A stretch of DNA of 26,268 bases from a virus: IMG/VR virus record IMGVR_UViG_3300037184_000166, positions 1 to 26,268 of that record; one strand, written 5' to 3'. Below the pieces are notes generated by a model. That model ran no database searches. It was not told the DNA's origin and saw only the letters and a list, made by a program, of their open reading frames with translations. This document shows, one piece after another, positions 4,181-25,963 of this stretch (position 1 is the first letter of the stretch; every line of letters starts with the position of its first letter). The position numbers and the translations under genes are program-made.

Positions 4181-4554
4181 GGCAGGCTGTAGATTTTCTT
4201 CTCGTACTTCGCCCAATCAACACCCAGCTCAGCAGACATCAGTGCCTCGATGTTCGTGGCAAAGAAGTGCTCCCGGCGGTACGGCGCCCTTGGATCGTCG
4301 CCGGGCTCATCGTCGTTCCCAGGCTTGCGTGCTTGTTCAAAAGCGATGTCGAAGGCATCCACTGACTCTTGGGAAATCTTCCGATGCCTGCAGAGGTTCA
4401 CCTCGACGAGCTCATGGAGGGCAACGAGGAGTTCGTAGCGCCAGTTGTTCATATCCGACACCTTGATGTGCAGGACGCCCTTGCTGGTGAACCAATCGCC
4501 AACGGTGGGGTATCGCTGCCTCGAGTGGGGTGTGGTCTCTATTACGATTTTCAT
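4177..4554 (-). CDS. Small conserved phage protein with HExxE motif (possible metal binding)
   Basis: A 125-residue protein whose ATG overlaps the stop of the giant virion gene (ATGA), so the two are probably coupled. It opens with MKIVIETTPHSRQRYPTVGDW, followed by a short beta region ending WRYELLVALHELVE. H47, E48 and E51, with H57 (CRH) six residues on, resemble a metal-binding helix such as those in small zinc proteases. A second conserved-looking stretch is DDPRAPYRREHFFAT (86-100), with H96. A classical HExxH is absent. From memory, proteins with this layout recur in uncultivated podovirus genomes, without a known function. A protease or structural metalloprotein is possible, but neither is shown. 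It is probably a late gene, since it shares the virion operon. Confidence 0.72.
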   Translation of the reverse strand: MKIVIETTPHSRQRYPTVGDWFTSKGVLHIKVSDMNNWRYELLVALHELVEVNLCRHRKISQESVDAFDIAFEQARKPGNDDEPGDDPRAPYRREHFFATNIEALMSAELGVDWAKYEKKIYSLP

Positions 4555-7500
4555 TTTCTAAAGCTTGTGTTGATGTCGCGCATCTTCGCGTACGGGTCGC
4601 GGGCCTCCACGGGCGTGTACTCCCTCGGCTCCCAGTCAATTCCATTCTCCTTGGCATACCGCCACAGAAGCTGCTGGAAGCGGCCGTACATCGCCTCGCG
4701 GAGGAACTGGGCCGTCAGCACCTGGTGGAGAGCCTTGGGCATTGGCTCGCCGGCTTCCTTCGGTTCGAGGCTCTGCAGGAAGGCGGCGTCCGATTCCTCG
4801 CTCTTTGTCCATGTGTGGAGCAGGCTCTCCCGCGCGCTCAGCTGCATGCGGTCAAGGGTCTTCGACTTGATCTCCCCGTCATCCTTCAGCTCGAGGCCGC
4901 GCTGTTCAGCATCCGCCTTGGCCTTCCCGGCGATCTCTTTCTGGACCGAGGAGAAATGATCCTTGATCGCCGCATAGGCCTTCTCGTCGTCGTTGTCCTC
5001 GAGGGCGTATCGGATCGGCTGGAACTCGCTGACGGGGTAGGTGCCGGTATCGTCCTTCGCTTTGAATGGGTCGTCCTTGGGCAGATTCTGGTTCCACTCA
5101 TGGGCCAGTTTGTAGGCGTCCGCGATCGGCGACCCGCGGCGGATCTGTATGCCCTGGCTCAACAGGAACTGCTGGAAGTTCGAAACGTCCATGTACCGCT
5201 GAGTCGGGCTGATGTCCTTCAACGCCTCCGAGACGCCCGGCATCCACTTCATCGAGATCGGCACCCAGGACACCGCTGCGTCCCGCAGGGCGTCTGTCGG
5301 GGTGATCCGCTCTCCGCGCCAGTTCATTCCCACAGTCATGTTCAGACCGTGCGAGACCATTGGTGAAAGCCGCGATACCAGGTACGGGTTTACCCCGCCC
5401 CGGTGGAAGGTCTGGTTCAACCCCTCCCAAAAGTTGAGCAGGTCCTGCGCCTCGTTGCGGATCCCGTAGTAGCGCCCGTTGTGGTAGACCATGAACGGCT
5501 CCTCCCAGTGCGGATCCTTGTCATCGTTGATAGCCATGTTCACGGCGCGGCTGACGAGCATCAGGGATCCCGCAGTCACCGCCAGACCGTACAGCGGCTG
5601 ACGGCCAGCCTTCGCCCCGGTCAGACCCACCACCTGCTGCCCGTAGTTGCGGATCGTCGCCTCGAGGAAGTCCGGGGCCAAGGCAGCGAACCGAATGAAA
5701 TGCTGAATCGTCGGATTGCGGTTCAGGAGGGCGTAGTTCTGGTGGCCGAACCTCGCGTTCACCTGCTCGCCAGTCAAGGCACTGATCTGCCTAGGAGTTA
5801 TTTTCCCCGCCTTCAACTCTTCAGAAAACAGCCTCATGTTCCGTTCGCGGAGCGCCTTGTAGGCCGTGAACTTCAGCCGCGGCAGGAAGACCTCGAAGGC
5901 CATGTGCTGCATCGCCTGGTTGGCGTCTGCCACCCTGCGCAGGTACGGAACCTTGCCGAGAATATCGATTCCGCTCCGGTGACCGCCTGTGCCCTCTGTG
6001 AACTCAGACCTTGAGGCCTGTGGTGAGATGAGCATCAAGCCGCCGTTCTTCACGGCCTCCTGCACCTCGGGATCCGCGGGATCGATCTTGTCCAGGTTGA
6101 AGACGTTGATGCCATAGGTGAATCCGCGCTTCGCCAAGTGGACCGGGTGGAACATCGAGAAGGCGCCCAGCATCGTGTTCGCGACGAACCTGTTCGACTG
6201 ATCGACGAACTTCGCGGCACGCTTTGAAATCTGCACCAAGTCACTGCCCGGGGCATCGTACCAGTCTTGGATGGCGGATCTACCGAGAATGTTGCGCAGC
6301 CAGCCGGCCACCTCAGGGTGGAAAACCATTCCGCGGAGCGACGGATGCTTTACCTCCTCGTAGGTGGTCTCGACATCCTCCGGCGGCTTCCCGTGGTAGG
6401 CAAGACGGTCGCCGTTCGAGCCGCGCTCGATCATCATCCTGCTGAGCATCCTGCGGGTGTTCACCGCCTTCGACAGTGCGTTGTTATACACAGTCATGAT
6501 CTCAAGGATGTCCTTCGTGGCAGCCTTGAAGCCTGCCTGCTCAAGCTCCCCAAAGTTCGGGAACGTCCGCGCCTGAGAGTACTTGAAATTCTTGTCCAGC
6601 TTGCCGTAGTACGCGCTCGCCACGCCGCCGCCTACGTACGGACGGTCGATGATCTGGGTGATGTAGTCCTCGCGGAACCGCTTCTCGTCCATCACTCCTT
6701 CCTTCACCGCCCGCTTGAACTGGTCGTCGAACCACTTCCCAATAACCTCCGTCATCGCCTTCTGCTCGTCTGTGAGCTTCAGGGCGGCCTGGTATCCCTT
6801 GCGAAGAGTGGTGTCAGTCGTCTGCTTCAGGCGGGCCCGGATCGTCGCCTCATCGTATCCTGCATCCCTCCAGTTCGACATGCCAATGCGGGTCAGGCGA
6901 TCAGGGGCCACCCTCTTCACCTCGCGGCCCACTGGCATGAACTTCAGTTGGTCTATCTGGATCCCGCCCACCCAGTCCGAAACGATCTGCCTGAAGCCTC
7001 CATCCATCGGCACGTTCCTCACGTAGTTGGCGGCGCGGCTGAGGCTGTCCCAGATCCCTCGCCCAACGTCCGCGGCCTGGCTCATCATCGGCGATGCGGC
7101 GCCCAGGTTCTTGGCCTCCTCAAGGGCCTGCTTCTCCACGCTGGTCTCCTTCCCATCCGGCAGGCCCTTGGTGGCACGGAGCAGGGCGTCGTTCGGATCA
7201 TCGGTCGCAGCCTGCTGGTCCTGGCGGAGCTTGGCGGCCATCTCCGGGGTGTTGGTCTTAGCCGACGCCTCGCCGGCCGGGTTCTGCAGGACGAATCCGT
7301 GGTCATCCTTCGTCACCTTCATATCCTCGGCCTGTGGATCCGCCTGTCGCTGCAACTCCTGTGCGCCGGCATAGAGCTGCCCGAGGATCGGCCGCATGCT
7401 CTCGCCGGTCTCGGATTCAAATTGCGCGACAGCCGCGGCGAATGACTTTCCGCCACGGATCATCATGTCCGCCACCACGATCGTGGCATCGAGGATGTCT

Positions 7501-10500
7501 GCAGGATCCAATCCAGCTGCAACGCGCCCGAGGTGGCGCTTGTTCATCCTGTCGATCGCCGCCTGTGCTGCGGCGCCGGGTCCTCCTGCAGGAGGCCTTA
7601 CTGGTCCTTCGTTTCCTTCGGGGATTCCGCCGGCTTGCTCGTAGGCGGAGCGTAGCGGCGTGCTGGCTGCTCCCGCAGCTTGCGGCAGCGACATCTGTTT
7701 TGCCGCTTTCCTCACGGCATCGACAAACGCATCCTCATATTGGTCTGCATCGCCCCTGCCACCGTACTCCTTAAAATTCTCCTCGGCTGCATCTCGGTAA
7801 TCGTCAACTGCGCCCTGTAAAGATTCCGGCGCCTTCCCTTCGATGATAAGCCCTTCGACGTGATCCACCAGGTCGGGCACCGTTGAAATATCACCCGTAT
7901 TTTCGTATTTATGCAACGCATCCTCTAGCGCATTTGTGTCGCCTGTGAATCCAGATACAGGTTGAGAGGAAACCGATTCGGCAGTCGCAGTTTCCGATGT
8001 CAAAGGTCGCATCAATTTACCCGTGTGCATGTCGCCGGGGTAATATGTGTCTTTTGCGGGGTTAATCTGCTGAGTGGTCTTGGCCCGCTGATATGTGTCT
8101 GGGCGATTCAGGAAAGAGCCCGCCCCGTCCACAAATCCAGCCATGGATTCATCTACTTTCTCGCCCGCATCTTGCGCGGCTATTTGTGCCTCCATGTGGT
8201 CCGTTCCTGTGAAAACCTTCCCGTCGGGTGTTTTGTACGCAGCCAAAACAATGCGATGCCCGGAACTATCCAACTGTGAGAATGGCGCAGTCGCCTTTAC
8301 GTCCACAGCCTCTGTCTTTTCCCGGGCAACGTCCGCGCCCTTATCCAGCGCGCTTTGCATCATCTGCCGCTCCTCGGCTGTGAGATCCACGTCAAGTTTG
8401 TCAGGCCGGATCCGGGCGGCGATGGCATTGCCTGCGGCGACTAGATCCTCGTCTCCGTGGCCTCGATCATCGCGGGCCCAATCCAAAACTTCACGGGCTG
8501 TCAGTGGCTTCGTTGGATCCGCCAAGCGAGTCGGAACATCACTTGTTTCAGCTTGGCCGCCAGACGCCAGAGCCCCCTGGGCCTTCGCGTACTCAGTTGC
8601 CGCCAGTGCCGTGTCCTTCTTCGTCGCATCGACGGCCTGCGAGTACATCTCACCAAGGAAGGGGCGGATGCCGGTTCCAAATTCGTCCTGCATCCTCGAG
8701 GACCACTCTGCCAATGTCGTCACCCCCTTGAGAATCAAGTCTGACCCAATGATCAGCCCGTCAGCGATGTCCCGTGGGTCGAAGTTAGCCGTGGTCTCAC
8801 CCTGCGCCCGCCTTTCCATGAAGCGGGCTTTTGCCTCGTTGACAATCCGGTCTCTGATGTTGGCCGGCTGGCCTCTGGCATCCAAAGATGCGAGGGCGGC
8901 GCGTTGCTCGATCGGCGGAGGCTGAGCCTTTTCCCCTGCCTTCTTCCCTGCAACGTAGGGTTCCACACCTAGGGACGCGATGTTCCGGTTTGGCTCCTTG
9001 CCGGTTCCCTCGATTTCTATCCAGAAGGGATCGCCGGCCTTCCTGACGCCAGGCATGACCATGAAGTTTCCCTCATCATCACGGACCAGCGTTCCTGTCC
9101 AGCCTCGATAGTTCACCACCTTACCGATCAGGGATCCAAGCATCGTCTGCTCCGGAGCCTTCCCAAAAGCCGTCGCGTACATCAGGTTGTACTGGTGCTC
9201 GGCGAGGATGGACTGCATTCGCTCGGTGGAGTAGGCATCCTGCAGGGCCTTGACCACATCTTCCGGAACACCATAGGCCCGCATGGCGGTCTTGTCCTTC
9301 ATCCACGCGCGGGCGAATCCCTCATCCCTGAAAGCTGCATGCCCTCCTGCCACGAGGGCGGTGACGGCCATCATTGCGATCGTCGACGGTGCGGACTCCT
9401 TGTAGGCGTCCAGGGTCTTGTGCCAGTCCACCTCTGGTATCGCCGCGTCAAAGTGGCGGTAGAGGGCCTGGATGAAATCTGAGGATGTTGCCTGGAAACT
9501 CAGGACCCCACCCACTGCGGCGGCGTCAATGGCGGTCTCGCCGGCCGCACGGGCCCCGGCTGACTTGAGACCGGCGATCAGCTTGTTCATGCCGGTCATT
9601 TTGCCGATCAGCTTGCCGCCGATCATCATCGACATGACATCAGCGCCGGCCGTATCGGAGGCCATGTTGATGGCCTTGTCCAAAGGGATACCCTTGGAGC
9701 GGTATCGCTCGATGTTCTCAGCCTTGATCGCCTCAAAGTTCATGAGGAGTCCAGGACCGCTGAACCAGGTCAGGATCGACGGGATTCCCACCGCGGCCCA
9801 TTCGGAAACCTTCTTCACCCATCCCTGACCTTTCGCCGGCTCGTTCAGCCCCATGGTCGCCCGGTAAAGGTCATGGTCTGCTTGGATCCGGTTGTAGTCG
9901 GCCTCAGGGTCTGTCGCCGGCACGGGCGCCACCGGGGATCCGGGGCGTGATGCGCGCTGGTTGAAGGCCTCCACTGTGTTGTGCTCAAGGTCAGCCTGAA
10001 GCTCCCTGACCCCGGTCTGAACGCCTTCAACCCACTCAGCGAACGTCCGAAGACCCATCCTCCCGAGCTTCCCAACCTCACCCTCTTCTGGCTGGGCGCC
10101 GCGGGATTCCTTCGCCTTATGGGAGGACAAGGCCAGCACCACATCGCGATCCTCCTGGCTGAGACCCGCGATGGCATCCATTGCAGCCTTGCGCTGCTCC
10201 GGGGCCACGTTCGCGATCAAGTCCTGGTCCGGCCGTATGGATCCCATGTAGGCGGTCACTGCGTTGATCGCCGGGCCCAGCTTCGTCACCTTCGCCTGGT
10301 AGTCCTTCTGCACGGCATCAGCCACGGCATGGTAGTAGTCGCGGTGGGTGGGGTCGTAGGCGGAGTCGGCCTCAACTTCCTTCTGGGTGGCATCCCAGGA
10401 GCCCTTCGGATCCTGACCTCCGTAGAGCTTGACAGCCAGACTCGAGGCCATCTTGCCAACCATGACGCCTTCCGTCTGTTCCTTCTTCAGCTGGAGCCCG

Positions 10501-10988
10501 GCTTGGCCGAAGAACTGTCCGTCGTCCATCTTCGGATCCCATCCAGCCTTCTGGGCATAGTCGCCACGGTAGAGCTCATAGTTCTGGACGATCTCCGAAA
10601 GGGGCTTCTGGTAGCGGGTGGCGAGGAAGATCTGGCTGGCAGTCCTCTGGCGCTGCACGCGCGGATCGACCGATGTCTTGCCCAATTCCTCCAGTTTGGC
10701 TGATGCGTCCTTCCCCACCGCCTTCTGGAACTCCTCGTCGCCTTGAAATAGGCTTGTCAGCTTGTCAGAATCGATTGTGGGGGTTTTTTCGCCGGCAGTT
10801 GATACCTGCGTAGCCTCAGCAACCGCGGTGGACGCCACGGGCACTGTTCCACGTGGTTGGCCGTGGGCGTAACCCGTTCCCTCCTTGACCAGTTCGGAGG
10901 GCTTGGATGGGTCAAACTTCGGCTCTTCAGCGACCGTCGCGGCGCCGCCGGAGACCAGTTCGGAGGGTTGATTCGGGTCGAAAGCCAT
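4551..10988 (-). CDS. Giant internal (ejected) virion protein, gp16-position, polyvalent-protein-like
   Basis: A 2145-residue protein in the place of T7 gp16, which has about 1300 residues. Its ATG directly follows the previous TAA, with GAGGT upstream. N-terminus: two copies of FDPxxPSELV (residues 3-12 and 25-34). There are hydrophobic stretches near residues 398-420, 532-548 and 1798-1818, which fits a protein that inserts in membranes during DNA ejection. A module of about 50 residues (DI.D..I...D....G, then a G..RP.LG..Y ending) occurs twice, at about 736-788 and 1160-1212. Residues about 897-1097 include a small domain (KTPDGKVFTG... and GFVDGAG.FLNR) known to me from large phage polyvalent proteins; codon use there is more AT-rich. 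The C-terminal part is helical and charged. No transglycosylase or protease motif was seen. Likely ejectosome component; exact activity unknown. Confidence 0.8.
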   Translation of the reverse strand: MAFDPNQPSELVSGGAATVAEEPKFDPSKPSELVKEGTGYAHGQPRGTVPVASTAVAEATQVSTAGEKTPTIDSDKLTSLFQGDEEFQKAVGKDASAKLEELGKTSVDPRVQRQRTASQIFLATRYQKPLSEIVQNYELYRGDYAQKAGWDPKMDDGQFFGQAGLQLKKEQTEGVMVGKMASSLAVKLYGGQDPKGSWDATQKEVEADSAYDPTHRDYYHAVADAVQKDYQAKVTKLGPAINAVTAYMGSIRPDQDLIANVAPEQRKAAMDAIAGLSQEDRDVVLALSSHKAKESRGAQPEEGEVGKLGRMGLRTFAEWVEGVQTGVRELQADLEHNTVEAFNQRASRPGSPVAPVPATDPEADYNRIQADHDLYRATMGLNEPAKGQGWVKKVSEWAAVGIPSILTWFSGPGLLMNFEAIKAENIERYRSKGIPLDKAINMASDTAGADVMSMMIGGKLIGKMTGMNKLIAGLKSAGARAAGETAIDAAAVGGVLSFQATSSDFIQALYRHFDAAIPEVDWHKTLDAYKESAPSTIAMMAVTALVAGGHAAFRDEGFARAWMKDKTAMRAYGVPEDVVKALQDAYSTERMQSILAEHQYNLMYATAFGKAPEQTMLGSLIGKVVNYRGWTGTLVRDDEGNFMVMPGVRKAGDPFWIEIEGTGKEPNRNIASLGVEPYVAGKKAGEKAQPPPIEQRAALASLDARGQPANIRDRIVNEAKARFMERRAQGETTANFDPRDIADGLIIGSDLILKGVTTLAEWSSRMQDEFGTGIRPFLGEMYSQAVDATKKDTALAATEYAKAQGALASGGQAETSDVPTRLADPTKPLTAREVLDWARDDRGHGDEDLVAAGNAIAARIRPDKLDVDLTAEERQMMQSALDKGADVAREKTEAVDVKATAPFSQLDSSGHRIVLAAYKTPDGKVFTGTDHMEAQIAAQDAGEKVDESMAGFVDGAGSFLNRPDTYQRAKTTQQINPAKDTYYPGDMHTGKLMRPLTSETATAESVSSQPVSGFTGDTNALEDALHKYENTGDISTVPDLVDHVEGLIIEGKAPESLQGAVDDYRDAAEENFKEYGGRGDADQYEDAFVDAVRKAAKQMSLPQAAGAASTPLRSAYEQAGGIPEGNEGPVRPPAGGPGAAAQAAIDRMNKRHLGRVAAGLDPADILDATIVVADMMIRGGKSFAAAVAQFESETGESMRPILGQLYAGAQELQRQADPQAEDMKVTKDDHGFVLQNPAGEASAKTNTPEMAAKLRQDQQAATDDPNDALLRATKGLPDGKETSVEKQALEEAKNLGAASPMMSQAADVGRGIWDSLSRAANYVRNVPMDGGFRQIVSDWVGGIQIDQLKFMPVGREVKRVAPDRLTRIGMSNWRDAGYDEATIRARLKQTTDTTLRKGYQAALKLTDEQKAMTEVIGKWFDDQFKRAVKEGVMDEKRFREDYITQIIDRPYVGGGVASAYYGKLDKNFKYSQARTFPNFGELEQAGFKAATKDILEIMTVYNNALSKAVNTRRMLSRMMIERGSNGDRLAYHGKPPEDVETTYEEVKHPSLRGMVFHPEVAGWLRNILGRSAIQDWYDAPGSDLVQISKRAAKFVDQSNRFVANTMLGAFSMFHPVHLAKRGFTYGINVFNLDKIDPADPEVQEAVKNGGLMLISPQASRSEFTEGTGGHRSGIDILGKVPYLRRVADANQAMQHMAFEVFLPRLKFTAYKALRERNMRLFSEELKAGKITPRQISALTGEQVNARFGHQNYALLNRNPTIQHFIRFAALAPDFLEATIRNYGQQVVGLTGAKAGRQPLYGLAVTAGSLMLVSRAVNMAINDDKDPHWEEPFMVYHNGRYYGIRNEAQDLLNFWEGLNQTFHRGGVNPYLVSRLSPMVSHGLNMTVGMNWRGERITPTDALRDAAVSWVPISMKWMPGVSEALKDISPTQRYMDVSNFQQFLLSQGIQIRRGSPIADAYKLAHEWNQNLPKDDPFKAKDDTGTYPVSEFQPIRYALEDNDDEKAYAAIKDHFSSVQKEIAGKAKADAEQRGLELKDDGEIKSKTLDRMQLSARESLLHTWTKSEESDAAFLQSLEPKEAGEPMPKALHQVLTAQFLREAMYGRFQQLLWRYAKENGIDWEPREYTPVEARDPYAKMRDINTSFRK
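10887..10982 (-). repeat. FDPxxPSELV N-terminal repeat pair in the giant virion gene
   Basis: Two 10-residue copies (FDPNQPSELV at 10982-10953 and FDPSKPSELV at 10916-10887), 12 residues apart. The underlying DNA is also similar. Such short N-terminal motifs recur in large virion proteins and may be docking or packaging tags; that role is inferred. Confidence 0.7.
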
Positions 10989-12572
10989 TTACTTGACCTC
11001 GTTCCAGTTCTCCCCGTCAAACTTGTAGGTCTTGCCGCCCTGCTTCCGGACCTCGTCCTTCTTGAACTTCGGTGTCTCCAAGAGCTTGTGACTTATCCTC
11101 TCCACCTCAGCCTCAGTCGAGGCGCTCAGTCCAGAGGATTGACCAGTCATCCCGTCAATAGTCGCCCGCCCCATATCAAGATCGGTCTGCCCCTGAATCT
11201 GGGTTGCGATGAACTTCCTCTGGCCCTCTCGGTCATTCTCGAGGTCCGGGTTCTTGGCGATCTCCGCCGACAGGGCGGTCTGCAGGTCCCAGAACCGCTC
11301 GTGAGCCTTCTGCCAGATTTTCTGGTCCCGCACGTCCTTGCCAGTTTTCTTGTCGACAACTGCCCAGTTCCCGAAGCGGTGGTCATTCAACAGGTCGCGC
11401 AACATCGTGTAGCCATCGTCGCTCTTGTCCGGCGTCTTCGCCGACAGTCGAGCATCCAGTTCCTTGTTGAGCTTCGTCTGGTACGCGGTCGGCAGGGACC
11501 CTATTCCCGGGGTGCCCGCAGTGCCTGCGATGATGTCGACCAGCTGGCTGTTGTCCGTGTCCGTCACCCGGTCGTAGTTGTTGATCAGACCCAGGATGTA
11601 GCCGGCATTTGCCTTCGCCTCGTTGACGTTGTCGCGGTTCACATGGCTTTCGTAGGCGTCTGCCATACGGTCGGTGATCAGCTTTGACTTCACCATGTCC
11701 ATCAACTGGTCATGCGACAGGGGCTTCTTCGGGTCCTGGTCGTAGTTCGCGAGGGCTTGGTTGAAGTTGCCCGCCTGCCAAGTGTTGGTCTGGCGCCGGC
11801 CTTCACTGATCAGCCGCTCCATCGCCTGAGGCGAGAAAACCTTCTTCGGAGAGATCAGGTTTCCGTTCTGGTCCAGTACGTTATCGGGCAGGGGGGCCCC
11901 GTACTTCATGGAGGCCTCGAGGACGTCTGTCATGCCCGCTGGATTCGTAGCCATTCCCTGCTCGATCGCGCTGGAGGCGACGATCTTCGGTATGTTCCTC
12001 TCCCACTCATCCATCATGACAGGGTCGAGCTTGCTCGAACGGCCGAGCTTCACGATCGCCGCCATGTGGTCAGCATGCCCATCCCGGCCCGCCTCCTGGT
12101 AGTCCGCGTACAAGGTGCCCTGAGCCCTGTTGATGGACTGCAGGTTCGACATCGTCTTCGCCTGGATCTGGAGCCCCTGCCCCCACGAATCCAACGCGAT
12201 GTTCAGCTGCGGCCGCAGTCCAGGCGGAATGCCGCCGTTCTGGCTGAAGATATCCGTGCGCACCTTGTCGGCCATCGACTTGGCCCGCTCCTGCCACTGC
12301 TGCTCGTCCGAGTCGCCCTTGGTGCTCTCGATGAAGGCCTGCTGGGCGGCGCGCATTTTCAAGTCGGCATCCGCAGAGATCCGGGCGAACCGAACCTTCG
12401 CCATGTCCGCCTGAAACCCCGCCGCCACATCTCCGACTCCCTCGATCGCGCCGGCAACAGCCTCTGCGCCGCGCAACCGCGGGCCCGCGAGGGCACCGGC
12501 ATTCAGCTGCACATTCCTCTCAGGAGTGTGGATGTCCTGTTCACTGCCAGGGACTGTGGGAATGTTGGCCAT
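10989..12572 (-). CDS. Internal virion protein, gp15-like by position
   Basis: A 527-residue, mostly helical, charged protein. The start has GGGAA upstream and follows the gp14-like gene by 4 bases. It begins MANIPTVPGSEQDIHTP, then an Ala/Gly-rich stretch (residues 25-55) of the kind that opens many internal or ejection proteins (LRGAEAVAGAIEGVGDVAAGF), then long amphipathic helices with many Gln, Lys and Asp residues. The C-terminus ends in a short strand-like KTYKFDGENWNEVK. Location between the gp14-like and giant gp16-position genes matches gp15 of T7-like phages, which forms the periplasmic ejection tube. Sequence similarity to gp15 itself cannot be claimed by eye; T7 gp15 is longer (about 750 residues). 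Internal virion role is likely. Confidence 0.72.
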   Translation of the reverse strand: MANIPTVPGSEQDIHTPERNVQLNAGALAGPRLRGAEAVAGAIEGVGDVAAGFQADMAKVRFARISADADLKMRAAQQAFIESTKGDSDEQQWQERAKSMADKVRTDIFSQNGGIPPGLRPQLNIALDSWGQGLQIQAKTMSNLQSINRAQGTLYADYQEAGRDGHADHMAAIVKLGRSSKLDPVMMDEWERNIPKIVASSAIEQGMATNPAGMTDVLEASMKYGAPLPDNVLDQNGNLISPKKVFSPQAMERLISEGRRQTNTWQAGNFNQALANYDQDPKKPLSHDQLMDMVKSKLITDRMADAYESHVNRDNVNEAKANAGYILGLINNYDRVTDTDNSQLVDIIAGTAGTPGIGSLPTAYQTKLNKELDARLSAKTPDKSDDGYTMLRDLLNDHRFGNWAVVDKKTGKDVRDQKIWQKAHERFWDLQTALSAEIAKNPDLENDREGQRKFIATQIQGQTDLDMGRATIDGMTGQSSGLSASTEAEVERISHKLLETPKFKKDEVRKQGGKTYKFDGENWNEVK

Positions 12573-12576
12573 GTTG

Positions 12577-13158
12577 TCAGTTCCCGGTTGGGGCGCTCAA
12601 GTCCGTGTTCGCTGGGTCGTACCCGCCTCCGGCAGGAGCCGGGGCTCCCCCGCCTCCGCCTTTGAACAGGCCTTGGTTGTAGGCACCCCCCACCTCGGTC
12701 GCCACCTTGCTAGCTCCGTTCAGAACGTCCGCGATGCCCTCCATGTGATACTGATCGGCCTGCGCTGCCCCTTCCGCAACGCCGGCAGCGGCCGCCGAGG
12801 CAAGGTTCTCCTCCTTCGCCTGCGACTCCGCCCACATGTTCTGCGCGCGCATCTCGGTCTTGCCGATGGTTGCCGCCTGCACCGCCAAGGCTGACCCCTT
12901 GTTCGCGACGATCCCGGCCCCAGCGTAGGCTGCTGCCTGCCTCGAGACGTAGGTTGCAGCATCCTTCCGCATGTTCTGGATGTTGACGATCGTGTCCTTG
13001 TCGATCTGGTCCGACTGGGCAGCATCGACCTTCGCGTTGTAGGCCGCGGTCTGTGTCGCCGTGTTCGCCGCCGCATCCGAGGCCTTCTTGGCCATGCCGC
13101 TGGACGCCACCGTTGCGCCAACGGAGATCGCAAGTGCTGCTATTGGGATGACGGGCAT
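12577..13158 (-). CDS. Internal virion protein, gp14-like
   Basis: A 193-residue protein with AAGGAG about 10 bases before the ATG. The gene overlaps the end of the preceding one by 19 bases. Residues 2-22 are hydrophobic (IPIAALAISVGATVASSGMA). A long Ala/Gln-rich helix follows (residues 23-160), then a Gly/Pro-rich tail (GGGGGAPAPAGGG). This is the usual profile of T7 gp14-type proteins: a hydrophobic start, then an alanine-rich coiled region with VNIQNMRKDA and a segment of the GIVANKGSALAVQ kind. T7 gp14 forms the outer-membrane pore of the ejection channel, and the same role is inferred here from profile and gene order. Confidence 0.78.
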   Translation of the reverse strand: MPVIPIAALAISVGATVASSGMAKKASDAAANTATQTAAYNAKVDAAQSDQIDKDTIVNIQNMRKDAATYVSRQAAAYAGAGIVANKGSALAVQAATIGKTEMRAQNMWAESQAKEENLASAAAAGVAEGAAQADQYHMEGIADVLNGASKVATEVGGAYNQGLFKGGGGGAPAPAGGGYDPANTDLSAPTGN

Positions 13159-13604
13159 GGGAGTGCCGCTCCTTCAGACGGCGGCCAGTTCTCTGCGTTT
13201 ATCAGCGGCTTCGCGTAAGTCTTGTGGCCTGGGTCAGGTGTCGAGGTGGCGTAACCCATCTTCACCATCGCCCGCTCTTCCCAGCTTCCTGGACGAACGA
13301 ACGACAGGACCGCGAGGCATCCAGCGTCCTTGGCGATTGCCTCGAGCTTCTCGTACAGTCCCTTCACCGCCTCGACGATGTCCCGCGAGAAGGCGCACTG
13401 CGGGTTCGTCGTCGTCAGTTCGATGACCCCGATCTTGTTTCGGTGAAAGTACAGGAAGCTCATCGCCATGTCCACGCCGGCCGAGTAGGCCACCCATCCG
13501 TCAGGAAGGGCCACCATCGGGAATCCGAGCGCGTTGTGCCGGTCCCACCAGCTCTTCAGCTTTGGGTAGTCGACCTCGGGTTCGAATGGCCGGTATTTGA
13601 TCAT
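13140..13604 (-). CDS. GNAT-fold-like phage protein in gp13 position
   Basis: A 154-residue protein starting at ATG 13604, which overlaps the nozzle gene stop (ATGA). An in-frame start at 13787 would lie inside the nozzle gene and adds no sensible sequence. Visible pattern: MIKYRPFEPEVDYPKLKSWW, then ALPDGWVAYSAGVDMAMSFLY (32-52), IGVIELTTTNPQ (58-69), a helix DIVEAVKGLYEKLEAIAKDAGC (75-96), a strand LAVLSFV and a final MVKMGYA (113-119). This strand-helix order and the late GY motif resemble GNAT acetyltransferases. Related proteins occur between tail nozzle and gp14-like genes in many podoviruses, where T7 has gp13. Whether it acetylates anything or only keeps the fold as a virion assembly factor is unknown. 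Confidence 0.7.
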   Translation of the reverse strand: MIKYRPFEPEVDYPKLKSWWDRHNALGFPMVALPDGWVAYSAGVDMAMSFLYFHRNKIGVIELTTTNPQCAFSRDIVEAVKGLYEKLEAIAKDAGCLAVLSFVRPGSWEERAMVKMGYATSTPDPGHKTYAKPLINAENWPPSEGAALPCPSSQ

Positions 13605-16600
13605 GGCACGCTTGAGAGGCTGTAGTCGACCGCCACCCCTAAGACGGTGAGGGGTAAAGGTCCAGACGTATAAATTATCACTGGGATCACGACGCCGTAG
13701 TCGCCGCAGAAATCCTTCACTTGGTAGATGCCACTGTAGAGCGGCACCTCGCCGAGCGGAGGTGAGGGATTCGTCAGGAGCGCCCACAGCCAGGAGAAGA
13801 GTCCCTCAGTGCGGCTCCTGAAGATCAGTTCCTTCGTCCGTCCCTTCAGACCGCTTCCATCCGTGACCGTGCAGGCAAGCGTGTTCAGGAAGGAGATCGC
13901 CAGTCCGGTGACCTTCTTCGTCACGTTGCTCGTCACGCCTGTGTGGACGTCGACATCCAAGTTCATCGGCTGGAGGATTGATGGGAAGGGCAGGCCGACA
14001 TGGGCGATGCACTCAGAACCGTCTGTGGGCGGGGTGAAGGCCGGCACGGTGATCTGCCCTCCGTCAACCACAAATGTCCCGTAGTCTTGTGCGTTGATGC
14101 AAACAGACACGGTGCGTCCGTTTAAGTAGCCGAGACCTGTGAAGACGTTCGTCGCCGGCTGGACGTAGGTCTGGCCGCAGTCGACGTGGTAGGCCCAGTC
14201 CTTGTCCGGGCCATATCCCGGGGTCTGCCCTGGCTGCGGGATCACCGTCTGCCAGTTGATCGGGTTCAGCCTCTCCATGAAGCGGGTGGCCACCCCACCG
14301 ATCATCCTGTTGACCACCACCCAGACCTCGTCGTCGTTGGTGCCCTTGCCATGGATCGTCGCCACGCCCTCGAAGCCTGCATCCGTTCCGAGTCCTGTGT
14401 AGTGCCGGTGCCAGCCGAAGATCTCCTGGTCGAGCTCGTAGGTCATCGCCACCATCTCGCCGTTCGCGGTCGTCACCCAGAGGAAGCCGTTCTTCTGGCC
14501 CTGCTTCTGGTAGGCCATCTGGATCGCCCCTCCGTTCATGATTTGGTCGGAGAGCGCCGTCAGGTCCTGCGACATGTACTTGTTCGTCACGACTGAGTAG
14601 AGCATCTGCCGCGCGGAATATCCCTGCCGCTGCACGAATACCAACGCATCGCCGGCAACGACTGCCGGGATGTTCTGGTTGCTGCCCCAGCGCGACTGCC
14701 GGTGGGCGGTGATGTTCGTGGGCCCTATCCCGCTCGAGCCGTCCGCCGGGGCGATCACCCACTCAGCCGAGAGCAGTCCGGCGAAGAGAGCGTCCTGGGC
14801 CTGCAGCCAGAGGATGGCACCGTCGCCGACGGCGTCCAAGTCGAAAGCCACGCCGTCCGTCGCAAGCGTCTGGTCACCGAGGTCCCAATTCTCGATGTCG
14901 TTCTGTTGCGTGCCCCAAACCCTCTGCGGCTCGTAAGCCGTGTACCCGCAGAAGACGCGCTGCTCAAAGGCCGTGATGGCAGATGGGTAACCACGCACGC
15001 CCGACCAAGATCCTTCAGACCAGTAGATCGTCGGCCATCCATCCGCAGTCCAGTGCCCTGAGTCGCTCGGCGGGGGCGTGCTTCCGGTGACCGCGGTGTT
15101 GCAGATGTAGTTGACCCCGTTGTAGCCGGTGCGGTCCCCGACCACGTATCCCTGGCCGCTGACCCAGGCATCCGCAACCGTAAGCTGCGTGATCACGTCC
15201 GCCACGGCGAGATACGGGGTTGTCACAGTGCCTCCAGATCCGGATATCGAGGCGCCGTTGTACTGGAAGACTGTCCCGACCGTGAATCCCACAGGGGCCC
15301 CGAGGGCGCCCCAGTTGACCGTGCCGACCGCCTGGATCGCGTAGGTTGTGCCGCTGACCATCACCGAGGCAGCCGCGATTGCCACCTGGGTGATCTGCAC
15401 AATGCCGTACAAGAACGCATCGACACATTCGAATACGACCCGTGGATTGGTAGGACCAGCCGTGGGCGGCACCGACACGTTCGTGATCACCAGACGGTAA
15501 AGCTGCGCCTGTGCGGCCGTGCCCGTGATGTCCACATTTCGGTCGTTTCGGCCGGTGGTGGTCCTGACCGTCTGCCAAGTGATGCCGCCATCCGAGGAGG
15601 ACTGAACCTCGATGTCCGCCGACCACACCCCGTAAGTGTGAACCTCCCACGCGCCAAAGGCGGTGATCGTCGAGGAAGTGCCCGCCGCGAATCCGCCGGC
15701 CGCGGTGCCGTCATATTCCACGTACGCAGAGTCTCGGAGGTAGGCCAGCTCCCAGTAGGCTCCCACATGCGCCGGCAGGAACATGGTCACCACCGACCAG
15801 TAGCCGGAGGCCAAGTCGTTCGCGAAAGTTCCGGAGATGTGCGGGAAGGTGCAGTTGTAGATGATCCCGCCAGCCAGGACCGAGGAGTCGATGTTATAGG
15901 AGGTGGATGTAGCCCAAGAGGGCGCGCTCGCTGTGAGGAGGGTTTGTCCGGTCGTACTGGCCGAGGAGATCGTGACGTCCGTGGCGTTCTGGTCGAGAAG
16001 CGCCGGGGTCAGGTCGAAGACAGGCTCCATCGACCAGTCCGTGTCGGCATACCGGATCAGCTTCTGCCGGGGGTGGTTCGCCTGGGTGATGTAGACGACA
16101 TCATTGATCGGGCAGCACTGCAGCTGGAACACCTCTGTCGCCGGCAGGCCTCCTGAGCCCACCGCCGCGTCATATGGGGACGGAACCTCGTAAATGTTCT
16201 GCTGGACCCAGTTGGTTGCGTCCGAGTGCGGCTGTGTCGTGCTCCCGTTGATGCCGCCGGCAGAGTAGTAGATCTGGGTGTTCGTGGGATCAGTGACGAA
16301 GGACCCAGCTGGGTAGTCCGTGGCGGTCACCCAACTCGGAGCCGTGCTCAGGGTCACCTGCGCCCCGTTCGAGTAGAAGCGTATGTAGTGGTGGCCGAAC
16401 TCGAGCATGAAGGCCGTGTTGATCGAGAACTGGAACTCCTCCGGCCTCGCGCAATAGTTGCCTCCAGGGATCACCTTCGTCGGGGCGATCATCTGCGTGC
16501 CGGGGCGGCGGGTGCCCGGGCCCGTCTTCAGCAGCAGCATGTTCCTCGCCTGAATGCACGCAGCCCTGTATTTCTGCTGGTCGACGCGGGCGGTCAGGGT

Positions 16601-19355: not shown

Positions 19356-19420
19356 GATTGGAAAGTGTTTGCTGACTGCCAGGATGACGCCTGACACGTC
19401 CGGCTCCCGCCTCGAGTGTT

Positions 19421-19431
19421 CAGCTATGCTG
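19421..19431. repeat. Short palindrome CAGC-ATA-GCTG
   Basis: Perfect 4-base arms around a central ATA (minus-strand reading). It lies 66 bases before the coat ATG and shares its GCATAGC core with the palindrome at 19470-19480. It could be a protein-binding site or chance. Confidence 0.4.
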
Positions 19432-19469
19432 GTCTTGGCACCACCGGAGATCCGCCTGCCCGCGCTGGT

Positions 19470-19480
19470 CCGCTATGCGG
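19470..19480. repeat. Short palindrome CCGC-ATA-GCGG
   Basis: Perfect 4-base arms around ATA (minus-strand reading), 38 bases from the related palindrome at 19421-19431. Together the two fit C(A/C)GCATAGC(T/G)G. Function unknown. Confidence 0.4.
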
Positions 19481-19522
19481 AGTATTCTGCTTGGCGAGAA
19501 CGGTCTGCCACCACCAAATAGA

Positions 19523-19553
19523 AAAGCCCGCGCCTTTGTCAAGCACGGGCTTT
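19523..19553 (-). terminator. Rho-independent terminator after the co-chaperonin gene
   Basis: On the minus strand: stem AAAGCCCGTGC / GCGCGGGCTTT (11 pairs, one G-T wobble), a 9-base loop TTGACAAAG, and a short T-run that continues the arm (CTTTTC). It starts 20 bases after the co-chaperonin stop and ends the scaffold/co-chaperonin transcript before the coat gene. The T-run is short, so some read-through is likely. Confidence 0.8.
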
Positions 19554-19573: not shown

Positions 19574-19939
19574 TCAGGCGGCACTGTTCAGGGTCTTAGC
19601 CTGCTCGCCCTCGATCGTGAGATTCAGGTGCCGTTCGCGAATCGCGTACACCCTCTTGCCATTGAGGCTGAACTCGAAGTCGCCTTTCACGAACTTCTGG
19701 ATGTAGACGAACTTCCCGGGCTTCAGCTCGGTCTTGATCAGATGCCCGCCGTAGGTGGCGTTGTTCCCGTCGAACGGCAGGTAGCCGGGACCCACAGCCA
19801 CCACCAGGCAGCGGCCGTACTCGGTCGCGTCGTCAGGCAGCAGGATGCCGCCCTTCGACTTGATCTCGTCCATCGGCTGGAGGATCACCCAGTCCTGCAG
19901 GGGCTTGAACTTTCCCTTCACTTGGAGTGAGTAAAGCAT
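19574..19939 (-). CDS. GroES-like co-chaperonin
   Basis: A 121-residue protein. The ATG overlaps the scaffold stop (TGATG) and has AAAGGA upstream. It follows the GroES pattern: FKPLQDWVILQPM (11-23; compare the I-R-P-L-x-D-R-V start of GroES), the mobile loop KSKGGILLPDD (27-37) with the GGI-L-L tripeptide that contacts GroEL, GRCLVVAVGPG (42-52), LKPGKFVYIQKF (72-83; compare V-K-V-G-D-I-V-I-F) and the VYAIRERHLNLTI end (98-110). The region after GPG, the roof-loop position, is a little longer than in bacterial GroES. By analogy with T4 gp31 it would cap host GroEL and help fold the coat protein encoded next. No GroEL gene is in the window. Family assignment is strong; the coat as client is inferred from gene order. 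Confidence 0.88.
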   Translation of the reverse strand: MLYSLQVKGKFKPLQDWVILQPMDEIKSKGGILLPDDATEYGRCLVVAVGPGYLPFDGNNATYGGHLIKTELKPGKFVYIQKFVKGDFEFSLNGKRVYAIRERHLNLTIEGEQAKTLNSAA

Positions 19940-20910
19940 CAGGGTCCTTTCCGGCGGGAGGCCTCGCCCTGGAGCTTGTAGAGCTCGTTGACCTTGAGTT
20001 TCGCGTCCTCGTGCCCCGGGTCGTTCGGATCCGTCCAGGCCTTGTTCAGCGGGTTCTGCGGGTTGCGCATGATGTCCAGGGCTTGGTCGCGGTAGCTGGC
20101 CTTCCCAGGCTCGCTCAAGTCGCCCTGAACCAGCTTGTCCTCAGAGATGAGATTCGTCAGCCGCACCATGGCCAGCCGGAAGGCTGCGTCCTTCATCATC
20201 GGATCGCTCGGCTTGATGCCCAGCGTCACGGCGCCGCGGAGGGCCAGGGTGTTCGCCTTGTCCACCTCAATCCCCTGCGTGTGCATGGCTGTCTCGAACT
20301 CCTTGTCCTGGGAGGCATAGTAGGCAGTCTCGGCCTGCTTCTGAGCCGCCGTAGACTGCACGACCATATCCTGCTGCATTTTCAGAATGCGCTTCACGGC
20401 GCCCGGCGCGAGGCATTCTTCGTGGGCGATCTTCGCGAACTGGTCGGCCAAGCCTTGGTTCCAGTTCTCCGCCGGCAGGTCCGCGGGTTTGGTGATGCCG
20501 TATCCGGCAGGTTCTTTCGGCACGTTGAGGATCTGCGCCAAATGGGCCCGCCTTTCGGCTTTCGCCTCATCTGAGGCGTTCTCCGGAAGGGGCGTGAGAG
20601 CCTTCGCGACAGCCAGCTTGTTGGCGTTCGCGCCGCCCCCAAGGAGGCCCTCGAGGGTGTCGTACTTGAGGAAGAAATCCTTGTGGCCCTTGATGCTGTC
20701 GGGGGCCTTATCCCAGCCTTCCTTGTTGATCTTGCCGTCCGCGGTGATCAGCCCGTCGAACCACTGCTTCTGGGCGCCGGCTCCGCCACCCGATCCGCCG
20801 GCAGCGGCCTTTGCTGCAGCCGCAGCAGCGGCTTGCGCGGCGGCGTCTCCGCCTCCACCTGCGGCCCCGCCGGCAGCTTCCTCAAACAAAGGGGAATGAT
20901 TTTCGAACAT
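19939..20910 (-). CDS. Capsid scaffolding protein
   Basis: A 323-residue protein with GGGGAGG 8 bases before its ATG, the best ribosome site in the window, fitting a protein made in quantity. Residues 11-47 are almost only Ala and Gly. The rest is charged and mostly helical: WFDGLITADGKINKEGWDKAP (50-70), FFLKYDTLEGLLGG (79-92), a P-rich ITKPADLPAENWNQGLADQFAKIAHE (139-164), and Gln-rich helices to the basic C-terminus GEASRRKGP. The pattern of AELPEN followed by a helix containing FAKIAHE, ahead of a coiled-coil, is that of scaffolds in T7-like and related podoviruses. It lies just upstream of the co-chaperonin and coat genes. Basic C-terminal residues often bind coat protein in this group. 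Confidence 0.83.
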   Translation of the reverse strand: MFENHSPLFEEAAGGAAGGGGDAAAQAAAAAAAKAAAGGSGGGAGAQKQWFDGLITADGKINKEGWDKAPDSIKGHKDFFLKYDTLEGLLGGGANANKLAVAKALTPLPENASDEAKAERRAHLAQILNVPKEPAGYGITKPADLPAENWNQGLADQFAKIAHEECLAPGAVKRILKMQQDMVVQSTAAQKQAETAYYASQDKEFETAMHTQGIEVDKANTLALRGAVTLGIKPSDPMMKDAAFRLAMVRLTNLISEDKLVQGDLSEPGKASYRDQALDIMRNPQNPLNKAWTDPNDPGHEDAKLKVNELYKLQGEASRRKGP

Positions 20911-21853: not shown

Positions 21854-23623
21854 TCAAGCGGCCTGTGGCTGCTTGTTCTTCGGGATCTGGTCTGAGACCG
21901 AATCCTGGAGGGCTTGCGGTGCCTTCCCGAGCTTCCCTGCCGCGGTCGCAGCCTGCTCTGCCATGGCCATCGCCCTGTCTTGGGACTGCAGTTGCGCACG
22001 CTGCTGACGGAGGCTGATGACCTGCTGCATCGGACGCTCGTACCGAGGAGACATCCCTTGGTTGATCGCGTACGCGCGCAGTGCGGAATCCCAGTCCCAG
22101 TTGTCCAGCCACTCCGGCTTTTGGGCCTTCCCAGATACCTCCGTGATGAACTGGAGGGTATCCATCGTGGCCTTGTTCTGCAGGGCCATGAGGGCGAGCG
22201 CCAATCGGCTGGTGTACGTCACCTCGGGCATCGCCAGGCGCAGCTTGCGGCCGGTGGGGTCCGGAACGTACATGGACCGCGGGGGCTTCGGGAAACGGCC
22301 GGCACGGAACAGGATTCCGAAAATGCGCTTCAGGTCGGGCCCAGTCTTCTCCGTGATCAGCCGGCCGAACATCGGGCTCAGCTGCTCCAGCTTCTCGCCC
22401 ATCACCTGAGAGATCCCGTAGGCGGTGGCGTGGTTCACGTCGATCTCCTGCATCGCCTTGAAGACGTCCGTGTAGAACATCCTGTGGACGGCCTCCTGGA
22501 TTTTCTGCACGCCGGTCTCAGTTCCTTGCAGGTTCATCCTCGAGACCCATTCCTCGGGCTTTCCGCCGCCAGGCGCGTTCGGGTCGTAGGGCGTCACGCC
22601 GCCCGGGCGGAGGTCCATCTGTCCAAAGAGCTTGATTGGGGTAAGGATCCGGGGGTTCGCCTGCAGCTCAACCTGCGCATGCTGGAAGCGCACCATGAAG
22701 TTCAACTCGCGGACGTTCGGCAGGGTCTCGAAGGCGGGGCTGTACCCCCAGACCGATCCGGTTCCCCAGTCATCAAAGCGGGTGACGGAGTCAGGCATCT
22801 CGTCGTATCCGCCCTCCTTCACACAGACCTTGTCCTCGAGCGCAATGTAGATCGAGGCGAACGGCTTGTTCGGCCCGTCAATCCTGCCGGGCTCACGCTC
22901 AATCTCAGATCGAGGCCTGATCACATGGACGAAGACAAACTCTGCGTCCTGCCCCTTTCCGCCGTTGTCGGTGAGTGCCTTGTAGATCTTGCGCGCCGGC
23001 TTCAGGGCGCTCTCACCCCACTCCTGCTTCGCCTGTCGGGCGGAGTACTTGAACTCCGAGTAGATCGTGTCGACCATACCCTCGCTGTTGCGGGCCACGC
23101 AGTAGGTGGCGATCTTCCGGGTCATGCAGTTGATCAGGTTGGCCTCGCCCTGCTCAATGTGCAGCTGGCCTGTGCCGAACACAACCCGGTTCTTGTACTG
23201 GATGCCGCTCTCAGAGTAGTAGTTCGATCTGGAAAGCTCGTCGAGGGCGATCTCCGTACACATCCCGCACCAGATTGATCCGTCGTCGTTCTCGTCCATG
23301 TTCATGGACTTCGGCGGAGTCCAGGCAAACCACGGCTCGGCCGAGGGTGTCGCCCAATTCGCATGTCCAGTCGTGCAGATCCTGGCGTCCTCGATGCCCG
23401 TCGTGTCGTAGATCAGATCGCCCCACCCAGCCGTCCCTTCCGTCTTTGTCGTGTTGATGTCCGACATGTTCGGCAGGTAGTAGTCGGAAAGCCGCTGCCA
23501 TGGGTCGTCCCAGATGGCCATCCTCTGGCTCTTCAGCTTCTGGTAGCGTGTCAGCTCGCGCAGTGCCAAATCCGGATTTCCATCCGCCCGACCTGACTTC
23601 GGTGCTGTTTCGAGCATGAACAT
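21854..23623 (-). CDS. Portal / head-to-tail connector protein (T7 gp8-like)
   Basis: A 589-residue protein, close to the usual portal length for this group (about 540). Pattern: a helical start (ELTRYQKLKSQRMAIWDDPWQRLSDYYLP), DTTGIEDARICTTGHANWATPSAEPWFAW, QYKNRVVFGTGQLHIEQG, a stretch around YGYSPAFETLPNVRELN, then LEQLSPMFGRLITEKTGPDLKRIFGILFRAGRFPKPP. These are familiar elements of the bacteriophage head-to-tail connecting protein family. The C-terminus is Gln/Ala-rich. Two ATGs (23623 and 23617) are possible; the difference is two residues. Twelve such subunits form the ring through which the terminase packages DNA; this is family knowledge. Confidence 0.92.
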   Translation of the reverse strand: MFMLETAPKSGRADGNPDLALRELTRYQKLKSQRMAIWDDPWQRLSDYYLPNMSDINTTKTEGTAGWGDLIYDTTGIEDARICTTGHANWATPSAEPWFAWTPPKSMNMDENDDGSIWCGMCTEIALDELSRSNYYSESGIQYKNRVVFGTGQLHIEQGEANLINCMTRKIATYCVARNSEGMVDTIYSEFKYSARQAKQEWGESALKPARKIYKALTDNGGKGQDAEFVFVHVIRPRSEIEREPGRIDGPNKPFASIYIALEDKVCVKEGGYDEMPDSVTRFDDWGTGSVWGYSPAFETLPNVRELNFMVRFQHAQVELQANPRILTPIKLFGQMDLRPGGVTPYDPNAPGGGKPEEWVSRMNLQGTETGVQKIQEAVHRMFYTDVFKAMQEIDVNHATAYGISQVMGEKLEQLSPMFGRLITEKTGPDLKRIFGILFRAGRFPKPPRSMYVPDPTGRKLRLAMPEVTYTSRLALALMALQNKATMDTLQFITEVSGKAQKPEWLDNWDWDSALRAYAINQGMSPRYERPMQQVISLRQQRAQLQSQDRAMAMAEQAATAAGKLGKAPQALQDSVSDQIPKNKQPQAA

Positions 23624-23938: not shown

Positions 23939-24320
23939 CAATTGCGGGCAAATCCGCTGGGCATAAACGACGCAATGTCTCGGAAGGCACCAATGTCAAT
24001 TCTTTCTTGCCGCCCCTGAGCCGGTGAAAGGCTATCCATCCGAGGGGCCAGGGCAGTATCTGCCAGCACTTTCCGATGTCGCCGGCCATCGCATGCACAA
24101 ACCAGGTGTCGGCCGTCCGGCGCAGCTCTGGCGTCAGTTCGAACATGACGTCGGTCATCTCTACGATCCTCTCGCGGATCACCGGCCTGCCCATGACGAA
24201 GTAGTCGGGAGTCGAGAACACGAATCCATGGCGGTGGTGCCACGCCACGTAGAAGTCGAAGGTGAACTCCTGTGGGTTCGCCCCGTACAGGGCCGCTATT
24301 TGATCGTACGGGCTCACCAT
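23919..24320 (-). CDS. Small unrecognised protein after terminase
   Basis: A 133-residue protein. ATG 24320 overlaps the terminase stop by 7 bases; a GTG at 24317 would give the common GTGA overlap instead. Pattern: YDQIAALYG, then FYVAWHHRHGFVFSTPDYFVMGRPV (23-47), a helix, WFVHAMAGDIGKCWQILPWPLGWIAFHRL (73-101) and a basic stretch. The aromatic patches and Pro-Trp-Pro-Leu turn suggest a small folded domain, perhaps GNAT-like as in some neighbouring podovirus genes, but I cannot place it with confidence. Probably a late gene co-translated with the terminase. Confidence 0.66.
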   Translation of the reverse strand: MVSPYDQIAALYGANPQEFTFDFYVAWHHRHGFVFSTPDYFVMGRPVIRERIVEMTDVMFELTPELRRTADTWFVHAMAGDIGKCWQILPWPLGWIAFHRLRGGKKELTLVPSETLRRLCPADLPAIDDITPG

Positions 24321-25963
24321 CGTATCACCCTTGGTTCAGTCCTTCCCTCCCCTCGGGGGCGGTTCCAGCCGGCAAGGATGACCTGCCCTGACCCCGGGGC
24401 CTGCATGTACGTGTACCCGTCCCCCCCTGGGATCATGCCGTTCATGTCCGCTTCCGCAAAGGTCCGGATCGCCGCGGCGCCGTGGGAGTTCTCGTCGTGT
24501 ACCGGGTTCTCCCTTATCACCCCGCTCGAGGCATCCTCCTTCGTGTGGTAGCCCTCGAGGCATCCGATCCCCGAGGGCATCGTCCTGCCGTCGTGCTGCC
24601 AGGTGCGGCCGCACTCGGTCTTGTGGAAAATGAAGCGCGGAAGGAGGGCCCGGAGCCTGCGGATCCCCAGCCACTCGTCGGGCGTCCGCGTGACCACCCG
24701 GATGTTCTCGAGGCCCGCAGCCATGAGGTATTCGACATAGGATTTGCCGCTCTTCTCCTTCGCGTTCGCGTCATGCGGCAGGAAGTTGATCGCCACCGGC
24801 ATCTGGTACTTGCGCTCCCATTCCTTGATGACCGCGGCATAGTATGGCGGGTCCTCCCTGCAATTGCAACGGTAGGCCAGGGCGCAGATGTCCCGGCCTG
24901 AGAATTGCAGGAGCCAGATCGCCGTGAAGTCGGAGTACCCGATGTCCCAGAAGGAATACAAGGGGAAGGTGCGGTCGTGCTCGAAGTCGACAATCCTCTT
25001 CGCCGCCCGCAGCTGGGAGATCCTCGAGCCGTAGATAGCCCCCTTGATAACCGCCTCGAAGGCCTCCGAGACCGTGCTTGGGAACTCCGACAGGATCGCG
25101 TTCTCGATCGCCGCGTGCTTCTTCACGTACCAGAACTTCTGCTCCGAGGTGAGCTTGATGCCCTGCTCCTCGAGGCTCTTGAAGTATGCTGCGTGCTCCG
25201 CATCCAAATGCAGCCCAGGGCTCGACAGCACGTACCCGAAGTGACGCCACCATGGGAAGAAATGGAACCTCCAGTCCATCGCGGTGAGCGGCTCCTTCGA
25301 CTCCATGGCCAAGCATAGCAGGGCGTAGAAGACGCCGAACTTTCCCCCCTCGTGGGTCGCCTCGATCACGATCGTGTTGCCCGAGTGGATGGTGTTCAGC
25401 GCGCCCTTCCGGATCTCCTCCGCAACCTCCGGGCTGTAGAAGCTGACGTGGCCGAGCTCAGAAATCCAGAGGAACTGCAGGGTGCCGCCACGCATCGAGG
25501 TGCCAGCCCAGATCTTCGAATCGTTCGACCATTCCATCTCCTTCGTGTTGTCGACCCGGAGACGGACTGTCGCCTTGACCATGGCCCCTATCTGCGCGGT
25601 CGCCGGGTCATCCGGATCGTCGAGGTGGTCATAGGCGAAGCGGACCTTGTCCAGCTTCTTTTTTGCGTCGTCGTCCGTTTTGTCGATGATGCCGCAAGTT
25701 TTGTTCTTTGAGAAGAGAGCGAAGTCCAGCTCCCGCAAGGCGCAATAGGTCGAGATTCCGGGCTGCCGGCACTTCAGGACGATGTTCTGGGAATGCCAGT
25801 TGTCGTGCAGCTGCCTCTGCTCCCACCGCGGCCTGAACTTCACCTTCACCCCGTTCTCATTCTCAATCCAGTAAAGGTTGGCCAGCCTCCATGCCTGCGA
25901 GGACAGCAGCTCCGCCACCCTTGCCTTTGCCTTCTCCTCAGCGATCTCCTGCTCAGTCGCCAC
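24314..25963 (-). CDS. terL: Terminase large subunit
   Basis: A 549-residue DNA packaging motor and nuclease, starting at GTG 25963 three bases after the previous stop. ATPase domain: Walker A-like KCRQPGIST (64-72), Walker B region FLWISE (164-169) with catalytic E169, and a coupling motif IEATHEG (200-206). Nuclease domain: WDIGYSDFTAIW (339-350) with D340 and D345, LPHDANAKEKSGKS (396-408) with D398, and VHDENSHGAAAIR (488-500) with D490 and H494. These are the usual RNase H-like metal sites. It cuts concatemeric DNA and drives it through the portal encoded about 0.7 kb on. No small terminase subunit is visible in the window. Confidence 0.95.
   Translation of the reverse strand: MATEQEIAEEKAKARVAELLSSQAWRLANLYWIENENGVKVKFRPRWEQRQLHDNWHSQNIVLKCRQPGISTYCALRELDFALFSKNKTCGIIDKTDDDAKKKLDKVRFAYDHLDDPDDPATAQIGAMVKATVRLRVDNTKEMEWSNDSKIWAGTSMRGGTLQFLWISELGHVSFYSPEVAEEIRKGALNTIHSGNTIVIEATHEGGKFGVFYALLCLAMESKEPLTAMDWRFHFFPWWRHFGYVLSSPGLHLDAEHAAYFKSLEEQGIKLTSEQKFWYVKKHAAIENAILSEFPSTVSEAFEAVIKGAIYGSRISQLRAAKRIVDFEHDRTFPLYSFWDIGYSDFTAIWLLQFSGRDICALAYRCNCREDPPYYAAVIKEWERKYQMPVAINFLPHDANAKEKSGKSYVEYLMAAGLENIRVVTRTPDEWLGIRRLRALLPRFIFHKTECGRTWQHDGRTMPSGIGCLEGYHTKEDASSGVIRENPVHDENSHGAAAIRTFAEADMNGMIPGGDGYTYMQAPGSGQVILAGWNRPRGEGRTEPRVIRW

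Follow-up and report, generated by a model that had tools for sequence, protein, structure and literature searches.

Several phages are known to provide their own co-chaperonin. Gp31 of phage T4 acts as a phage-encoded lid for the host GroEL; it has no roof loops, which results in a wider opening, and its mobile loop is longer, with 22 residues instead of 16 (PMC6318259). In the siphovirus Pseudoalteromonas phage B8b, GroES is found in the structural module, between head and tail genes, and the authors of that work reported that GroES was earlier known from myo- and podoviruses (PMC4294664). GroES is also a core gene of the HTVC023P-type pelagiphages, which are podoviruses (PMC9599517). In chloroplasts, Cpn20 oligomers are able to work with chaperonins of seven-fold symmetry, although their own symmetry does not match (PMC5780408).

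The gene described here is a further phage GroES; such genes are known already, from podoviruses among others and also from positions next to head genes. Like B8b and the HTVC023P-type phages, our phage encodes a single GroES. The deposited uncultured phage ct2os315 (MW202796) likewise has a Cpn10 gene between portal and coat, but it differs in having another type of coat and several genes between Cpn10 and coat, and it is filed as Myoviridae. More interesting than the gene itself are the series of roof lengths and the tandem forms found in its relatives.

We analyzed an IMG/VR virus record, linear and 26,268 bases long (hereafter the window). On the minus strand the order is terminase-like gene, portal, a 209-residue gene, scaffold-like gene, Cpn10, coat, a 166-residue gene and tail proteins (table 1), which makes up a head and tail module of the podovirus type. 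We infer a scaffold role for the 323-residue product from its position between portal and coat. For the coat gene, a start at the GTG at 19397 was rejected and the 305-residue protein begins at the ATG at 19355. The Cpn10 gene sits between the scaffold-like and coat genes, as an earlier sequence-only reading had placed it, with a terminator-like hairpin intervening before the coat. The scaffold-like stop codon and the Cpn10 ATG have one base in common (TGATG, 19937-19941) and AAGGA lies immediately upstream of this ATG, which together make translational coupling of Cpn10 to the scaffold-like gene plausible.

Table 1. Features of the window and of the corresponding locus in related contigs.
Feature	Position	Strand	Evidence or remark
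Terminase-like gene	24314-25963	-	
Portal (head-tail connecting protein)	21854-23623	-	PF12236, E 1.5e-97
Scaffold-like gene, 323 aa	19939-20910	-	PHROG 3742, E 5.8e-11; no function assigned to that PHROG
Cpn10/GroES-family co-chaperonin gene, 121 aa, single domain	19574-19939	-	PF00166, PHROG 3188, AlphaFold model vs PDB Cpn10 chains
Mobile-loop region, residues 24-43 (DEIKSKGGILLPDDATEYGR)	19811-19870	-	Alignment; low pLDDT at residues 27-38
Roof-loop region, residues 51-73 (PGYLPFDGNNATYGGHLIKTELK)	19721-19789	-	phmmer/PDB, alignment; +8 residues vs Acinetobacter GroES
Intrinsic-terminator-like hairpin downstream of Cpn10, TTGACA in loop region	about 19523-19553	-	Own scan
Promoter-like TTGACA-N16-TAT, overlapping the terminator-like hairpin	19518-19542	-	Sole match in window
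Conserved structured 5' leader of coat gene	19409-19492	-	Covarying hairpin 19469-19481
Major coat protein, 305 aa	18438-19355	-	PF19821 Phage_capsid_2, E 5.5e-49
Coat leader in relatives	L001 7868-7953; L002 7891-7974; L003 4147-4230; L004 7873-7958; L005 1428-1510; L020 7472-7554		
Tandem two-domain Cpn10 proteins, same locus	L001 7099-7719; L004 6368-6973; L020 6001-6546		Two Pfam stretches each

The window protein (MLYSLQVKGKFKPLQDWVILQPMDEIKSKGGILLPDDATEYGRCLVVAVGPGYLPFDGNNATYGGHLIKTELKPGKFVYIQKFVKGDFEFSLNGKRVYAIRERHLNLTIEGEQAKTLNSAA) was matched by the Pfam family PF00166 over residues 10-103 (E 6.5e-9; 36.2 bits against a curated cut-off of 21.1) and by PHROG 3188, co-chaperonin GroES (E 7e-10), and these Cpn10 profile matches are far beyond chance. 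Moreover, phmmer matched it to the Thermus thermophilus Cpn10 in the PDB (E 4.5e-7). The earlier call of a GroES-like co-chaperonin is thus borne out by three agreeing sources, and profile searching placed the protein inside the Cpn10 family. It nevertheless missed the NCBIfam GroES equivalog and subfamily cut-offs (best 36.4 bits vs. 99), which indicates that it is not a canonical housekeeping GroES. With one Cpn10 domain it does not correspond to Cpn20, which has two per chain, and with a 23-residue roof segment and a mobile loop that is not lengthened it does not correspond to T4 gp31 either. The predicted structure, of modest confidence (pLDDT only 62), has the Cpn10 beta-barrel fold according to Foldseek: the top 31 matches were all Cpn10-type, with human Cpn10 at E 1.3e-5, and T4 gp31 gave a weaker match (E 0.19). 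Like bacterial GroES, the protein shows the mobile-loop core and the strands of this Pfam family; unlike bacterial GroES, it has an extended N-terminus, the longer roof and two extra residues before the last strands.

The GGILL motif that had been noticed in the mobile loop is indeed present, at residues 30-34 (window 19838-19852), and the low pLDDT around it is expected of a mobile loop. From D16 to the AVG motif there are 32 residues in the window protein and 34 in Acinetobacter GroES; the loop is therefore not lengthened, unlike that of gp31, and is even slightly shorter. The core of the loop is conserved among relatives, with G31, I32 and P35 invariant in the alignment of all seven contigs and a GG-I-x-L/V/I pattern throughout. 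The ILL hydrophobic contact triplet, within GGILL, is kept in the four single-domain proteins (window, L002, L003 and L005), while in the first domains of the tandem relatives it is weakened to IEL, IHV and IHI by the loss of one hydrophobic residue. The second domain of L004 retains GGILI.

The longer roof proposed from the sequence holds for the window protein, in which the segment from AVG to the next strand has 23 residues against 15 in bacterial GroES, but not as a fixed trait, since close relatives differ in its length, which ranges between 6 and 23 residues (21 in L005, 16 in L002, and only 6 both in L003 and in each tandem first domain, those of L001, L004 and L020). By alignment, L001, L003, L004 and L020 look roofless, as in T4 gp31. 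This suggests a larger roof in the window phage and an open roof in the four relatives, and the variation in length suggests that closure at the top of the dome is under loose or shifting selection.

These relatives were recovered by coat and alignment queries of IMG/VR; a single-sequence scan of IMG/VR with the window Cpn10 found no relative. The coat searches returned another seven contigs, whose coats share 70-78% identity with that of the window over the best segment. Six of them (L001, L002, L003, L004, L005 and L015/L020) carry Cpn10 between the scaffold-like and coat genes, and the seventh (L006) is uninformative on Cpn10 presence, as it starts just before the coat. The search for the same gene order in related contigs, proposed with the sequence-only reading, thus found Cpn10 at the same place in all seven contigs that cover the position, the window counted, each with a profile match above the PF00166 cut-off. 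The order portal, gene of about 200 residues, scaffold-like, Cpn10, coat is common to the contigs that cover it, and in the seven the Cpn10 start codon either shares one base with the stop codon of the scaffold-like gene or is separated from it by only a few bases. L020 has an additional 93-residue ORF (6577-6858) between its tandem Cpn10 and the coat, seen in this one contig.

Cpn10 divergence was greatest at third codon positions in 21 of 21 contig pairs, which is what a conserved protein should show. In the Cpn10 tree, from which the empty rows L032 and L033 were left out, the seven first domains formed one clade (support 1.00) separate from bacterial GroES and from the other phage Cpn10s tested. 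Together with the fixed position, this indicates that Cpn10 is an old resident gene. Many GroES matches from the phage collection, labeled Acinetobacter, Salmonella, Listeria and Enterococcus, were not counted as genes of phages, as they look like bacterial DNA filed as phage. No relative of the coat was found in the genome collection, so no host is indicated.

We consider it probable (roughly 80%) that the gene provides a phage Cpn10 lid for the host GroEL that acts on phage head proteins, most likely the coat. The protein would be made from the portal-scaffold transcript, presumably late in infection, and would assemble into a ring lid; the GGILL loop would dock this ring on the host GroEL, and the docked lid would close the folding chamber over the head proteins. 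No Cpn60 (PF00118) was found in 13 records, including related phage contigs of 41.8 and 47.8 kb and the 26-kb linear window, which is not necessarily a whole genome, and all 14 controls were detected. The partner is therefore presumably the host GroEL, in likeness to T4 gp31, another Cpn10-fold lid from a phage in which no phage GroEL was found. Gp31 serves the T4 coat as its client, and by this precedent the coat is a fair guess for the client here too. The guess is weakened by the terminator-like hairpin before the coat gene, by the coat itself, which at 305 residues is small enough for an ordinary chaperonin chamber, and by five marine or spring phages with homologous coats (HTVC010P, two Vibrio phages, EXVC032P and ct3Et533), in which no Cpn10 match above the cut-off was found. 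This coat type does not, then, always need a phage lid. The unusual client or cage imagined in the sequence-only reading was not established, given these five phages and the small coat.

The same observations give some weight to a true GroEL lid whose main client is either another head protein from the same transcript (the portal or the scaffold-like protein) or a host protein required during the stress of infection. Cpn10 shares the portal-scaffold transcription unit, from which the hairpin separates the coat, and homologous coats in other phages get by with no phage-encoded Cpn10; however, all seven contigs keep Cpn10 directly before the coat, and the established client of gp31 is a coat, so that we hold a client other than the coat to be a serious but minority option. 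It appears improbable that the ring no longer works with GroEL and has been exapted as a cofactor in head structure or assembly. The high overall divergence from bacterial GroES and the contact residue lost in the tandem first domains would fit such a change, but GGILL is intact in the window protein and GGILI in the second domain of L004. Phages do pick up host groES repeatedly, as the several unrelated phage GroES genes found attest, yet a recent capture carried by chance and with no special role is very improbable here, because the seven first domains make up one fully supported clade at a fixed position, that is, an old resident.

If the phage Cpn10 does act as a lid on the host GroEL, the locus provides a natural series in which the lid is roofless, normal, extended or tandem. 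The tandem proteins of L001, L004 and L020, and only these, resemble chloroplast Cpn20 in having two Cpn10-like domains head to tail. Their second domain is nearer to bacterial GroES; in L004, whose whole protein scores 91 bits, the strongest stretch falls in domain two. Chlamydomonas CPN20, a chloroplast Cpn20 subunit, was the top fold match to the model of the L004 protein, and T4 gp31 matched this model at E 7.7e-3. Unlike Cpn20, the phage first domains form a separate divergent clade, and the window protein has a single domain. A tandem arrangement may not be unique to this phage group: the Cellulophaga phage phi18:3 (L040, NC_021794) has two annotated GroES genes (1109-1363 and 11459-12061), of which gp096 is possibly a diverged tandem and gp080 is the second GroES gene, and the N-terminal half of its 200-residue GroES is Cpn10-like as judged by eye only.

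It is possible, and we propose it tentatively, that the GroEL lid was remodeled repeatedly in this one phage lineage, with a roof that was enlarged in the window phage and L005 and lost from L003 as well as from the tandem forms, which also gained a second, canonical-like domain by fusion. The trees of Cpn10 first domains and of head proteins conflict with weak support and thus give no firm count of fusions or of roof losses. If the remodeling is true, phages would adjust how wide the folding cage opens to suit the client, a cage tuning that we infer, and rings of two-domain subunits would face an even-against-seven symmetry problem, as in chloroplast Cpn20. The coats that accompany the series are about 70-78% identical to that of the window, so that, provided the lids do act on the host GroEL, the function of the roof in the chaperonin dome could be tested directly. 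We found no description of such a lid series in the literature.

The terminator-like hairpin overlaps the promoter-like motif directly before the coat leader (19518-19553). It was absent from the listing of a second terminator scan, and comparable hairpins occur in L002 and L003. By chance, 0.08 matches to TTGACA-N16-TAT would be expected in the window, and CTTGAC is found at the corresponding place in six of the seven contigs. The leader hairpin consists of 5 bp with an AUA-like triloop, and GAACAC lies just before it. Of the 35 pair cells in the seven contigs, every one is standard and 11 have changes on both sides; four of the five pairs show such changes and none is broken in any contig, while sliding the partner strand breaks the pairing. 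Several contigs have a second AUA hairpin in the leader, followed by GAACACUC. A covariance model of the leader located it at the coat of every contig and gave no other match in the window, with further matches in two long relatives at E 0.4 or worse; Rfam had no match in the window. Coat autoregulation or antitermination are our guesses for the role of this hairpin.

Elsewhere on the minus strand, 4551-10988 is a single ORF of 2145 residues that may encode a large internal virion protein and that Pfam did not match at E 0.01, and an ORF of 441 residues, also without a Pfam match, lies at 2891-4216 between a 125-residue gene and a tail-fibre-like gene. No tRNA was found in the examined parts of two long phage contigs. 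Past the tail genes of the window, a 215-residue ORF (13140-13787, minus strand) has no Pfam match, and an N-acyltransferase is annotated at the matching position in Vibrio phage 1.182.O.
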